Positions 7,441 to 52,579 of a stretch of 64,000 bases of DNA are shown here, one piece after another. The stretch's first letter is position 1. Each line of letters starts with the position of its first letter. Under the pieces are notes generated by a model. It saw nothing but the letters and a program-made list of their open reading frames with translations. It had not been told where the DNA came from and made no database searches. Source of the stretch: Solibacillus silvestris (GTDB taxonomy: Bacteria > Bacillota > Bacilli > Bacillales_A > Planococcaceae); the NCBI GenBank assembly GCA_001586195.1, contig CP014609.1, positions 904,001 to 968,000 on the forward strand. The letters run 5' to 3'. The position numbers and the translations under genes are program-made.

Positions 7441-7950
7441 ATGAAAAAAAGATGGATGTTATTGTTAATTCTTATTTTAGTATTGGCCGCATGCGGTAAG
7501 GAAGAGGAAGAAACACTTTTAGAGACGGATGGAACGTCTACTGTATATGAGAGTGAGGAGTCATTGACACATAGTATGGAAGGTGTCACTTTAAAGCTCG
7601 ACTATACGGTCAATAAGGTTTCCGCTGAGCCCGGAGAATTAATTCTTGAAATTAAAGGAACTATAGAAAATGAGTACAGTCAAATTGTCTACTATACGCC
7701 GGATTTTACAATTCAAACATTAGAGCAGGATGAAATAGAGCAGCTGTCGTCTTCTGTTGAGAACGAGCAAATTATGGTGAATCCTCAAATGGAAACAACT
7801 TTTAACGTGACTTATTTGATTCCTCAGCATATATACGATGAAAATAAATCACTGAATATGCGGGTTCCAGCTGCATTTAAGGAGCCGGAAAGCGAAAGTT
7901 CCGGTGATGCGTTAGGTGACTTTGCAAACTGGGAAATTCCGATCAAGTGA
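7441..7950 (+). CDS. putative lipoprotein of unknown function
   Basis: 169 residues with a clear lipoprotein signal: MKKRW, a Leu/Ile-rich core, lipobox LAAC with Cys at about 19. The mature part is acidic at first, then beta-rich, and could be an immunoglobulin-like fold. It ends in a serine/acidic tail. I do not recognise the family. It starts at ATG 7441 behind GAGAGGGGG. It is flanked by a terminator upstream and by a repeat element downstream, so it is probably monocistronic. Confidence 0.75.
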   Translation: MKKRWMLLLILILVLAACGKEEEETLLETDGTSTVYESEESLTHSMEGVTLKLDYTVNKVSAEPGELILEIKGTIENEYSQIVYYTPDFTIQTLEQDEIEQLSSSVENEQIMVNPQMETTFNVTYLIPQHIYDENKSLNMRVPAAFKEPESESSGDALGDFANWEIPIK

Positions 7951-7959
7951 AAACAATCA

Positions 7960-8106
7960 GCCATTAACGGGTAGTTTTACTACCCGTTAATGAGGGATAA
8001 AGTGAAACTTCAATCAGTGGGGGTCTTTCATCAACCCCCAACTGATTGTTAGTTAAACCAATCGGGCTTTAACGGGTAGTTTTACTACCCGTTAATGCGG
8101 GATAAA
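7960..8106 (+). repeat. Structured dispersed repeat, family D, copy 1
   Basis: Three hairpins in a row. The first is ATTAACGGGTAG..CTACCCGTTAAT (7963-7991), the second AATCAGTGGGGG..CCCCCAACTGATT (8012-8047), and the third TTAACGGGTAG..CTACCCGTTAA (8069-8095), followed by TGCGGGATAAA. The first and third are near-identical. The second and third, with the linker GTTAGTTAAACCAATCGGGC, recur in inverted orientation at 47637-47825. The element ends about 60 bases before the yqfC start. Confidence 0.8.
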
Positions 8107-17539: not shown

Positions 17540-17640
17540 TGAAGGGGGGATCCCAGCGGAAACAGCCCGACGTCTGAGACTACAAGTTCAGACCGGGCCC
17601 GCGGAAAGCGTCCGACCCGAAATGGAAATCAACTCCTGTT
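17540..17640 (+). repeat. Structured dispersed repeat, family A, copy 2
   Basis: Folds like copy 1: GCGG outer arm, CCCG (17566-17569), AC bulge, GTCTGAG (17572-17578), loop ACTACAAG, TTCAGAC (17587-17593), CGGG (17594-17597), CCGC, then GGAAAGCGTCCG. Stem bases differ from copy 1 but pair in both, while the 8-base loop, 2-base bulge and 3' tail are kept. Confidence 0.8.
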
Positions 17641-28319: not shown

Positions 28320-29708
28320 TTAGAATTGTAAATGTTTTTCGATATAAGCTTTTACTTCAGCGATCGGCATACGGATTTGTTCCATTGAATCGCGGTGACG
28401 AACTGTTACTTGACCGTCTTCTTTTGAATCGAAATCGTACGTAATACAGAATGGTGTACCGATTTCATCTTGGCGGCGGTAACGTTTACCGATCGATTGT
28501 GACTCATCGTAATCAACCGGGAATGCTTTACGCAAGTCAGCCCAAACGTCGCCAGCTTCTTCAGATAACTTTTTAGAAAGTGGCAATACTGCTGCTTTAA
28601 ATGGAGCTAGAGCAGGGTGGAAGCGTAATACTGTACGCGTATCATCGCCCTCTAATTGCTCTTCTTCATATGCATCACATAAGAATGCCAATGTTACACG
28701 GTCTGCACCTAATGATGGCTCGATGCAGTATGGTACATAGCGCTCATTTGAAACAGGATCGATGTAAGTGAAATCTTCACCTGAATGTTCCATATGCTGC
28801 TTTAAGTCGTAATCTGTACGGTCTGCGATACCCCATAGTTCGCCCCATCCGAATGGGAAGCGGAATTCGATATCTGTTGTCGCATTTGAATAGTGTGAAA
28901 GCTCATCATCTTCATGGTCACGTAAACGCATTGAATCTTCTTTCATACCTAATGCAAGAAGCCAGTTTTTACAGAACTCTTTCCAGTATGAGTGCCATTC
29001 AAGATCTTCACCCGGTTTACAGAAGAATTCAAGTTCCATTTGTTCGAATTCACGAGTACGGAATGTGAAGTTACCTGGTGTGATCTCATTTCGGAAAGAT
29101 TTACCGATTTGTGCGATACCGAATGGTGTTTTTTTACGCATTGAACGCTGAACGTTTTTAAAGTTTACGAAAATACCTTGTGCTGTTTCAGGACGAAGGT
29201 AGATTTCGTTTGAAGAAGATTCAGTTACACCTTGGTGCGTTTTGAACATTAAGTTGAATTGGCGGATATCTGTGAAGTCGATTTTTCCGCAGTCAGGACA
29301 AGCTACTTCAAGCTCTTCCATTTTTTCTTTCATTTGATCGAAAGTCATACCGTCAACGATAATTTCTTTGCCTGTTTTTGTTAAAGAAGCATCTTCAATC
29401 AATTTATCTGCACGGTGACGCGCTTTACATGCTTTACAGTCGATCATCGGGTCGTTGAAGTTACCTACGTGACCAGATGCAACCCATGCTTTAGGATTCA
29501 TCAAAATTGCAGCATCCAAGCCTACGTTATGTTCTGATTCCTGAACGAATTTTAGCCACCAAGCTTTTTTTACGTTGTTTTTAAGTTCTACACCAAGTGG
29601 ACCGTAATCCCAAGTGTTTGCTAAACCACCATAAATATCAGATCCAGGAAATACGAATCCGCGGTGTTTTGCTAATGATACAATTGTCTCCATTGATTTT
29701 TCTGCCAT
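28320..29708 (-). CDS. glyS: glycyl-tRNA synthetase (alpha2, class II)
   Basis: 462-residue homodimeric GlyRS, charging tRNA-Gly. Class II core motifs are present (FRNEITPG motif 2 region, [28 protein letters not shown] motif 3), with a zinc-type Cys insertion (CKACKARH) and an anticodon-binding domain at the end. B. subtilis has the unrelated glyQ-glyS tetrameric enzyme at this locus; the single-gene form is as in Staphylococcus. ATG 29708 follows AGGAGG. Expression is controlled by the T-box upstream. Confidence 0.97.
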
Positions 29709-29730: not shown

Positions 29731-29917
29731 TTAATCAATTATGCCTCGGCATAATTGCGTCCAGATTTTTAGACCCTCAGGATGTGGGTCAGTAAGCCGT
29801 TGTCACAGAATGTGACGTATTTAGGCTGACTTCTTTTTTCATCTAAAAAATCTGTGACATCTGCCAGAGCTTATTTTTATTCAGCGAGTGTATAAACACC
29901 CGCTGAATAAAAATAAA
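29731..29917 (-). repeat. Structured dispersed element, family C, copy 1 (glyS leader)
   Basis: Read in the glyS direction: hairpin TTATTTTTATTCAGCG..CGCTGAATAAAAATAA (29916-29871), then GGCAGATGTCAC, and an AGATTTTTTAGA/TCTAAAAATCT stem. The stem encloses smaller hairpins (GTCACA/TGTGAC; GTCAG/CTGAC). GGACGC and the palindrome CAATTATGCCGAGGCATAATTG (29757-29736, one internal mismatch pair) follow. The element ends about 27 bases before the glyS start. The same layout, with covarying bases, precedes cobU. Confidence 0.82.
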
Positions 29918-29918
29918 A

Positions 29919-30158
29919 GCACCCGTCTCCGGGCACAAAAGCTCTGCCCGGGGACGAGTGCATCAAGACGATGTACCCGCGGTTCCACCCCGCTTGTTTT
30001 TAAATAAATAAAAACCTCTTTTATAAAAATAGCTCAGGGGTGCCGTTTCTCAATTCAATGTAGGCTTGCACTATCCCTACTCGCTTATGTTAGAATTGAT
30101 ACTTATAAATCCCTTCATCGCTTACATATTAATAATCATAAACAACAAGTGAGTTGTT
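29919..30158 (-). promoter_or_regulatory. glycine T-box riboswitch of glyS
   Basis: Leader RNA that senses uncharged tRNA-Gly. On the minus strand the T-box core GGGTGGAACCGCGG lies at 29990-29977. The probable GGC specifier codon is at 30044-30042 in AAACGGCACC. A strong terminator pairs 29961-29944 with 29935-29919 (GCACTCGTCCCCGGGCA type stem) and a T-rich tract follows. Uncharged tRNA-Gly would stabilise the antiterminator and allow glyS transcription. Confidence 0.92.
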
Positions 30159-47628: not shown

Positions 47629-47636
47629 CCTTTCAA

Positions 47637-47826
47637 GTTTATCCCGCATTAACGGGTAATAATTTATCTGCCTCGAAAGCGTAGCGGCAGAGCCAAGACT
47701 CCCGCCTCTAAACCTAATCAGATCGAAAAGGATAGGTGGGAGGTCAACTACCCGTAAAAGCCCGATTGGTTAAACTAACTTTCAGTGGGGGATGAAAAAA
47801 ATCCCCACTGATTGAAGTTCAACCTT
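47637..47826 (-). repeat. Structured dispersed repeat, family D, copy 2
   Basis: Inverted relative to copy 1. On the minus strand: AACTTCAATCAGTGGGGA..TCCCCCACTGAAAG hairpin, GTTAGTTTAACCAATCGGGC, CGGGTAGTT, then a ~90-base insert with nested hairpins (CTCCC..GGGAG and CTGCC..GGCAG around CGAAAGCGTAGCGG on the plus strand), then TACCCGTTAATGCGGGATAAA. It ends next to the DUF2624 start. Confidence 0.8.
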
Positions 47827-47832
47827 AATCCC

Positions 47833-49980: not shown

Positions 49981-49999
49981 GATTAAGACAAATTGAATA

Positions 50000-50292
50000 A
50001 ATTTGCAGGAAAAAGATGCATTATGCATAAATGGGAATTCGGTGTAAATCCGAAGCTATTTCCGTAACTGTAAGCGTTGATGAAAATAAGTGTGAGACCA
50101 CTGCTAATATAGCGGGAAGGTACTTATGAGTAAAGTGAAACGCAGAGCCAGGAGACCAATCTTTTTCTTATCGTAACATCCCTCTTCGGAATTAAAGAGA
50201 ATGTACGGCAGTCACTGATCGAATGAGCATCCTTTTGCAGCACTCTTTTTTGATTTTTGAAGCCATCCATTTTCTTGGGTGGCTTTTTTTCG
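50000..50292 (+). promoter_or_regulatory. cobalamin (B12) riboswitch with terminator
   Basis: Aptamer elements in order: GGGAATTCGGTGTAAATCCG (50033-50052), CCGTAACTGTAAGC (50062-50075), the GACCACTGC block (50096-50104) and the B12-box AGAGCCAGGAGACC (50145-50158). A terminator follows: AAGCCATCCA..TGGGTGGCTTTTTTT (50258-50288). Bound cobalamin should reduce expression of the adenosyltransferase-like and BtuF-like genes downstream. Confidence 0.93.
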
Positions 50293-51883: not shown

Positions 51884-52018
51884 AATTAACTTCATTCAGC
51901 GGGTATCACTGAATGAAGTTAATTGGCTTCCGGCGGATGTCACGACTTCGGTAATGAATTCTTTGCGCTTTAGCGCAAAGTCGAATACGGACGCAATTAC
52001 GCCGAGGCGTAATTGATA
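51884..52018 (+). repeat. Structured dispersed element, family C, copy 2 (cobU leader)
   Basis: Read toward cobU: hairpin AACTTCATTCAGCGGG..CACTGAATGAAGTT (51888-51921), GGCGGATGTCAC, a hairpin region with CTTTGCGC..GCGCAAAG, GGACGC and the palindrome CAATTACGCCGAGGCGTAATTG (51993-52014). It ends 20-25 bases before the cobU start. Same order, orientation and spacing as copy 1 before glyS. Confidence 0.82.
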
Positions 52019-52036
52019 AAATAAGGGGGGATACGA

Positions 52037-52579
52037 TTGATTTTTATAACCGGTGGTGTGCGCAGCGGCAAAAGTGCTTTTGCAGAAAAATTTGCTAGGC
52101 AGTTAGGTGAAGAAAAGACGCTCTACTATGTGGCGACAGGTGTATCCTTTGATGAGGAAATGGAAAAACGAATTATCCGCCATCAGCAAGACCGCGAAAA
52201 TCAGAACGCCCATTGGAACACAGTTGAAATGCAAGTACAGATTCCTTTTACGATCGAGCAACTTTCAAATAATGATGTTGTGCTTTTTGAATGTGTGACA
52301 ACATGGCTTTCGAATGTACTGTATACATATAAACAAATAAATGAAAATAGCGAGTATATCGATAATTGTATCGAATCACTGCAAAAGCAATTGCTAACTT
52401 GGCGGAAGCAAGGTGCTACAATAATAGTTGTATCAAATGAAGTGCTGGATGAACTGCCATCACAGTATGATGAGGTAAATTTGTACCGCAAATTGCTAGG
52501 TGAGCTTCATCAATGGATTGTCCAAAATAGTGATGAAGCATATGAAGTACAATTTCAGCTTGTACAGCGTTGGAAGTAA
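52037..52579 (+). CDS. cobU: adenosylcobinamide kinase / guanylyltransferase CobU
   Basis: 180 residues. P-loop GGVRSGKS (6-13), then the CobU patterns YYVATG and RIIRHQQDR with the guanylylated-His region. It phosphorylates adenosylcobinamide and transfers GMP to it. The C-terminal third lacks the usual G(I/V)VP..R..RD..G motif, which instead is found in the second CobU-like protein at 53886. TTG 52037 behind AAGGGGGG. First gene of the operon. Confidence 0.9.
   Translation: MIFITGGVRSGKSAFAEKFARQLGEEKTLYYVATGVSFDEEMEKRIIRHQQDRENQNAHWNTVEMQVQIPFTIEQLSNNDVVLFECVTTWLSNVLYTYKQINENSEYIDNCIESLQKQLLTWRKQGATIIVVSNEVLDELPSQYDEVNLYRKLLGELHQWIVQNSDEAYEVQFQLVQRWK

Follow-up and report, generated by a model that had tools for sequence, protein, structure and literature searches.

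According to the portions of the literature cited here, insertion sequences of the IS200/IS605 type use a T-rich pentanucleotide target with 5′-only specificity and without duplication (PMC4227781), have a guide at the foot of a hairpin and act on the lagging-strand template (PMC6006769), and show a lagging-strand bias (PMC7290912). The cited part of the last source also names non-autonomous derivatives of the PATE type. The bcr1-bcr3 repeats are reported as B. cereus group elements; as portrayed in the relevant sections of two sources (PMC6542083 and PMC3446304), they are MITE-like, 100-400 bp long, associated with a TTTAT motif and present in UTRs, with up to 130 copies of bcr1. REP and REPIN sequences, for which HUH mobilisation by TnpA_REP (RAYT) is proposed, are high-copy extragenic palindromes, the REPs being short (21-65 nt) with a GTAG-type guide (PMC6006769, section cited). 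Finally, Rfam catalogues the Bacillaceae-1 RNA (RF01690) as an sRNA.

The element described here is a real, mobile, structured, gene-less and dispersed repeat of Lysinibacillus- and Sporosarcina-like bacteria that has traits in common with each of these systems; its likeness to the bcr repeats was judged by description only. No description of the family was found in the literature searched, in which subscription journals are mostly outside coverage. Our starting point was a stretch of 64,000 nt from Solibacillus silvestris (the window), in which a first-pass annotation from the sequence alone had noted an ordered set of parts common to 29731-29917 (minus strand) and 51884-52018 (plus strand), in the same orientation to the downstream gene and ending close to its start. 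Both copies were confirmed, with all parts in place, and the gaps from element end to start codon are 25 nt (glyS ATG) and 19 nt (cobU TTG). Their features are listed below, where model R1 is a covariance model built from 40 copies:

29734..29912, minus strand: element, glyS copy, 179 nt, 3′ of target TTTAT; model R1 match G000:933734-933871, minus strand
29913..29917, minus strand: presumed target pentanucleotide TTTAT of the glyS copy, within the T-tract after the T-box terminator hairpin
29871..29912, minus strand: hairpin 1, glyS copy; 3′ foot (ATAA) complementary to the target
29843..29870, minus strand: 5′ box GCTCTGGCAGATGTCAC and 5′ strand of helix 2, glyS copy
29774..29840, minus strand: inner module RF01690 Bacillaceae-1 RNA, glyS copy; 64.3 bits, gathering 35
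29734..29770, minus strand: 3′ strand of helix 2, GGACGC, palindrome (29737-29756) and terminal GAT, glyS copy
29947..30127, minus strand: T-box leader of glyS, upstream context outside the element; 72.1 bits, E 1.2e-15, below the gathering score of 93
28320..29708, minus strand: glyS, downstream gene, 462 aa, ATG 29708; Pfam tRNA-synt_2b and HGTP_anticodon (class II tRNA synthetase core, anticodon-binding domain)
51890..52017, plus strand: element, cobU copy, 128 nt, 3′ of ATTAA 51885-51889; model R1 match G000:955926-956017, plus strand
51890..51925, plus strand: hairpin 1, cobU copy; stem extends into the target
51926..52017, plus strand: 5′ box, helix 2, GGACGC, palindrome 51995-52014 and GAT, cobU copy
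51961-51980, plus strand: short CTTTGCG hairpin in helix 2 of the cobU copy, standing where the glyS copy has RF01690
51854..51882, plus strand: intrinsic-terminator-like hairpin and T-run directly 5′ of the cobU copy (context, read by eye)
52037..52579, plus strand: cobU, downstream gene, TTG 52037; PF02283 CobU, 140.8 bits

The left edges of both copies were read by eye from the target rule (see below) and from alignments of filled and empty sites. The glyS copy begins with T, where the usual base is C, and lies outside the 129-copy target count given below. A cobalamin riboswitch (window 49997-50178, plus strand, 100.2 bits) was also seen ~2 kb upstream of cobU.

Across the family, the order of parts is hairpin 1, GCCTCyGGCgGATGTCAC, helix 2 with a changeable tip, GGACGC, AATTAyGCCGAGGCrTAATT and GAT. 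The arms of hairpin 1 are variable and its loop is often enlarged, while the right end is a palindrome ending in TTGAT. The structure was examined on 40 alignment rows picked for diversity and for a short helix-2 spacer (25-45 nt), with shuffling as the control. Its pairs are formed in 96.3% of cells compared to 86.7% after shuffling, and 0/500 shuffles score as high. Pairs changed on both sides number 6/11 in helix 2 with its GTC/GAC extension, 5/5 in the tip hairpin and 1/9 in the palindrome; covariation is thus strong in helix 2 and weak in the palindrome, as judged on cells that are not independent events because the changes partly follow genera. The number of pair types is not above that of the shuffles (218/500 as high). 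The expectation of a structured element with covariation is therefore supported. As for the compensatory T-A/C-G change that had been reported for the outer pair of the palindrome, the compensation stands, although the pair is an inner one: at positions 12-21 of the 3′ box, CG occurs in 114, TA in 51, CA in 10 and TG in 5 copies, with two others, among 182 distinct copies kept of 193. An alternative long pairing, GCCTC(c)GGCG/CGCCGAGGC, is formed in 91.7% of cells with 1/9 pairs changed on both sides and is unsupported on A1; old glyS residents retain part of it, with compensation.

Copies are often incomplete or altered. With overlapping loci included, 92/283 3′ boxes have no 5′ box inside 250 nt and 21/212 5′ boxes have no 3′ box. 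At least six copies (L069, L124, L132, L133, L136 and L145) lack exactly the middle (GCCTCC|GGACGC), as if it were a removable unit. A second type of right end, near GGACAAGAGTTAGCCGAGG...GTAATTGAT, is found in G007 and G011 (L251, L267, L273 and L188), and in L269 the right end is altered yet still palindromic. Hairpin-1 loops often contain a unit like CAGAAGTCCCCCACTTCTATAAGTGGGGGATGAATG (L033, L039 and L148), which by eye resembles the sequence 5′ of a tnpB gene in G011 (L311), a locus that the pattern search did not score. In addition, many copies, e.g. L138 and L160, have an SD-like AAGGAG in a bulge of helix 2.

In the genome of the window (G000), the 20-nt right-end pattern GGACGCAATTANGCCGAGGC gives 18 matches at up to 3 mismatches, and the reversed pattern gives 0. 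The covariance-model search that had been suggested as a check was run with R1 and returned 19 matches there. Among 16 genomes of the genus, copy numbers at up to 2 mismatches range from 0 (G012) to 146 (G011), with 55 in G001, 57 in G002 and 130 in G007; the reversed-pattern control is 0 in all of them. Across the order, R1 is present in 159/261 genomes and 13/19 genera, and all listed matches fall in one family. It should be noted that the order-wide scan scored the best 16 candidates per genome, so that per-genome counts are lower bounds; G042, G072 and G219 have at least 16 matches each. In another scan, hosts named among the matches listed include Lysinibacillus, Sporosarcina, Psychrobacillus, Metasolibacillus, Solibacillus and Planococcus. 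Element repeats also occur on ‘Arthrobacter’ contigs (NZ_JADHDX01; L056, L062, L082, L084, L103 and L107); the six loci have 39-44% GC, which is too low for Arthrobacter, and the assembly is thus probably misnamed or mixed. A Bacteroidales match (L058) lies inside a 621-aa ORF and looks like chance. With window 51930-52030 as the sole query, no plasmid or phage match was found.

In order to compare filled and empty sites, we used 400 kb around glyS in four genomes, in which 15 of the 16 elements tried could be aligned. Sites that are filled in one species are empty in another. For elements 5, 12, 13 and 15, both junctions are readable to the base and show no target duplication and a right end at GAT; the other junction pairs are too diverged or contain indels for reading at this level. 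An empty cobU site was seen in G010, while the near relatives G005, G006, G009, G010 and G014, and also G012, lack the element at glyS. The TTTAT pentanucleotide is also found in the element-free glyS leaders of these five near relatives. The filled and empty sites, together with the 0-146 copies per genus genome, bear out the proposal of a MITE-like, mobile element, and copy numbers and empty sites rule out both a chance likeness of two copies and a purely vertical leader.

In the 129 copies whose hairpin 1 is readable by script, the target, namely the five bases 5′ of the element, is TTTAA in 37, TTTAT in 30 and ATTAA in 14. Its edge is sharp at -5, base -6 being near random, and the right flank is merely A+T-rich (333 sites). 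The bases that follow the 3′ arm of hairpin 1 (TTAAA, ATAAA, TTAAG and similar), referred to here as the guide, are complementary to the target and vary together with it. In the same 129 copies, guide and target form a mean of 3.92 of 5 pairs, compared to 3.28 when guides are permuted between copies (highest value of 1000 permutations: 3.43). The copies in this test are not independent because subfamilies share guide and target; part of the signal reflects subfamily structure, and stem changes that arose later could strengthen it. The complementarity, as read from the sequences, concerns the left end only.

The strand of the copies was compared with replication by assuming the origin at position 1 and the terminus near the middle. 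In G011 (138 of 147 copies), the ratio is 99:39 to 100:38 with the terminus close to the midpoint and 96:42 for the most distant terminus position used; it is 42:15 or 41:16 in G002 (57 copies) and 69:34 in G007 (103 of 130 copies). The favoured strand in these three genomes is the lagging-strand template, and copies follow the direction of replication 2:1 to 3:1; no such bias was found for 12 of the 19 copies in the genome of the window (6:6). In G007, 45 copies beside leading-strand genes run with and 18 against the gene direction, and beside lagging-strand genes 4 run with the genes and 7 against them, i.e. with the fork. Replication therefore explains the strand bias in G007 at least as well as transcription does.

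The orientation to genes agrees with the first-pass annotation, which had named random orientation without significant covariation as the pattern that would speak against it: covariation is present, and in tandem gaps the ratio of co-oriented to opposing copies is 88:13 in one count and 92:14 in a second count over the own, genus and contig sets. The ratio in G007 is 49:25 (p 0.0016 vs. 92:14). The stronger co-orientation outside G007 suggests a later loss of copies that oppose transcription, although the comparison is suggestive only because the sets were drawn differently and include some orthologous sites. Copies also often lie just before a start, as had been surmised: the 3′ end is within 45 nt of a co-directional start at 10/18 loci of the own genome and 25/103 copies of G007 (p 0.011). 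A stricter count, from which ORFs beginning at or inside the 3′ end of the element (two own loci) are dropped, gives 8/18 and 20/103 (p 0.032), the two sets having been drawn and matched differently.

RF01690 matches the glyS copy above its gathering score and has no match in the cobU copy. A catalogued match, which had likewise been held to count against the first reading, thus exists, but only for an inner, optional module present in one copy of the pair; it is this module, and not the whole element, that belongs to RF01690. RF01690 is present in 16/16 genus genomes with up to 107 matches (best 150 candidates per genome scored). The genome of the window has 39 loci, of which 30 were inspected by script and by eye; each of the 30 is embedded in a larger repeat, with at least three repeat families represented. 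By script, 18 are in the GGAAAGCGTCC repeat (marker downstream, GACTCC type), 5 in the glyS/cobU element and 7 unplaced; by eye, the latter comprise two variants of the GGAAAGCGTCC repeat (L497 and L503), four copies of a third repeat, ‘AAAGTGAAACTTCAATCAG...’ (L500, L506, L508 and L510), and a further repeat (L507) with look-alikes in G015 (L353 and L368). As read, each host repeat family carries its own RF01690 subtype. The Rfam ‘sRNA’ is recast in this way, at least in this genome, as a module of dispersed repeats. At orthologous sites, one species has RF01690 where another has a short hairpin (L028/L045; L009 and L023/L031; L022/L037), a swap for which gene conversion among copies is as good an explanation as insertion. 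In some cases one module interrupts another, and RF01690 matches are stretched by inserts in L047 and L143.

The leader of glyS, a gene with a single match per genome in 16/16 genus genomes, was read in all of them. The full element is found in G000, G007 and G008, and minimal forms that keep GCCTCT..AGAGGC in G001 and G002; the minimal form of G013 has GCCTTA..TAAGGC, with both sides changed in a compensated manner. G011 has a 3′ fragment, G003, G004 and G015 have other hairpins, and the remaining six leaders (G005, G006, G009, G010, G012 and G014) contain no recognisable element. In the glyS tree, G000 and the five near relatives without the element at this site meet in an open fork, and gain and loss are therefore indistinguishable. 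A fair case can be made for long residence of the element in the glyS leader, and it is expected in the glyS mRNA because of its position 3′ of the T-box terminator and 5′ of the SD.

We also searched for an enzyme that mobilises the element. Y1_Tnp (PF01797) has no match in six high-copy genomes, namely: G001, G002 and G007; and G042, G072 and G219. It is present in 9/16 genus genomes and 11/14 others, and G206, which has many near-equal copies, contains a PF01797 fragment only. The element box is absent at all 20 Y1 loci of the genus. Among 30 further Y1 loci, one (L455) has a 5′ box ~1.5 kb off, at the edge of the stretch, and among 29 TnpB loci the element is nearby at two (L321 and L334), as a neighbour and not as the ends; an autonomous parent with the same ends was not found at any of these loci. 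TnpB itself was rejected as the mover because G007 (130 copies), G001 and G002 are all without a PF07282 match. A reverse transcriptase common to high-copy genomes was rejected as well: RVT_1 has no match in G002 (57 copies), and the enzymes read in G007 and G011 are matched by the defence family Drt2 and the one in G219 by UG17, likewise a defence family. These assignments cover G007, G011 and G219; G042, G072 and G206 carry further reverse transcriptases. The defence enzymes (Drt2 in G007 and G011, UG17 in G219) are located as follows:

L484, 1210-2598, minus strand: defence reverse transcriptase
L485, 1207-2613, minus strand: defence reverse transcriptase
L482, 1285-2691, plus strand: defence reverse transcriptase

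No recurrent neighbouring transposase was found among the clusters listed for 883 flanking ORFs, and no ORF-bearing hairpin 1 or long version of the element was seen (arms readable in 168/268 boxes); seven pairs of hairpin-1 arms more than 190 nt apart look like chance. The enzyme has either been lost, or comes and goes, or is of another kind than those searched.

Taken together, we consider it reasonably probable that this is a non-autonomous mobile element of ~120-400 bp, moving as DNA in an IS200/IS605-like (‘peel-and-paste’) manner. The end hairpins would be recognised by a single-strand transposase that acts in trans and exists today or existed in the past, and the cut would fall where guide and target pair. 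An inserted copy would often end up within a transcription unit, copies opposing transcription would be lost more often, and some survivors, such as that of glyS, could persist as structured 5′ leader segments. Modules, RF01690 among them, may dock in the loop of helix 2 and could be gained or lost there through insertion or through gene conversion from one copy to another. With PATE-type derivatives the element shares the T-rich 5′ pentanucleotide target, specified on that side only, the lack of target duplication (four pairs), the hairpin ends with a target-complementary guide (by sequence, at the left end and in another geometry) and the bias towards the lagging-strand template (G002, G007 and G011; own genome 6:6). 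It differs from them in that hairpin 1 lies between target and guide (the guide is 3′ of hairpin 1, which is not the published IS608 geometry), in the modular inner loops, in the absence of a host Y1 HUH transposase gene from the six high-copy genomes, and in that no autonomous parent with the same ends was found. We do not assign the element to IS200/IS605, given that several hosts have no match to the transposase. The element also differs from REP/REPIN sequences, since its guide is TTAAA/ATAAA and not of the GTAG type, and PF01797, which should catch RAYTs, has no match in the six high-copy hosts.

Movement through RNA by retro-element logic, with the folded RNA as the transposing form and RF01690 as a shared recognition domain comparable to the common core domains of SINEs, would agree with the occurrence of RF01690 in at least three unrelated repeat families, with the covariation and with the bias to the sense of transcription. 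We nevertheless regard this route as improbable, given the absence of an RVT_1 match in G002, the defence assignments of the enzymes in G007, G011 and G219, and the lack of an RF01690-sized insert in helix 2 of most copies (the spacer is 25-45 nt, i.e. below that size, in 120/174 distinct copies). Furthermore, replication-strand bias and guide-target pairing fit single-stranded DNA better, although group II introns can show a similar replication-strand bias. We consider a conventional double-strand MITE derived from a DDE insertion sequence highly improbable: the element is short, non-coding and present in many copies with no transposase gene seen inside, as such a MITE would be, but the readable pairs show no target duplication, the left and right ends differ, the target is 5′-only and the strands are biased. 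In a wider reading, which we find rather unlikely, these would be family-wide self-guided hairpin repeats that base-pair with pentanucleotides; their mover would be neither a resident Y1 HUH transposase nor any reverse transcriptase shared by the high-copy genomes that were examined, and RF01690 would be a shared plug-in domain connecting unrelated mobile repeats. If the mover is indeed a new enzyme, the repeats would lead to it; the readable guide-target code in a gene-less element is of interest in itself.

A leader function is possible, and a related account, of which we are doubtful, takes the element as mobile with retained copies that might act as cis leader RNA (in mRNA protection or processing, or in RBS access) and be kept by selection. 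The restructured glyS residents (full, minimal and compensated G013 forms) would suit it, as would the position of the glyS copy after the T-box, hence presumably in the mRNA, the larger share of near-start copies in the own genome (10/18) than in G007 (25/103), and the co-orientation of 92:14 compared to 49:25. In the part of PMC3446304 cited, bcr repeats of B. cereus are often transcribed in UTRs, but the mRNA decay rate is correlated with bcr3 only and not with bcr1 or bcr2. Against selection for such a role, the glyS leader contains no recognisable element in 6/16 genomes, other hairpins in three and a 3′ fragment in G011; a minority of G007 copies abut a start (25/103, or 20/103 by the stricter count), replication accounts for their strand choice no less well than gene direction does, and the flanking genes are diverse. 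The element also scatters ready-made folded segments into mRNA leaders, a possible route to new leader RNAs.

Other host repeats of RF01690 are also represented in the window. Two copies of the GGAAAGCGTCC-type repeat are located at 2263-2324 and 17553-17614, and elsewhere in the genome the loop of this repeat holds RF01690. Copies at 7946-8106 and 47635-47827 were read as the third repeat (AAAGTGAAACTTCAATCAGTGGGG ... CCCGTTAATGCGGGATAAA), which elsewhere is also an RF01690 host. In RF01690-like units, further modules are nested in the RUCCU loops (L157, L140, L147 and L063).
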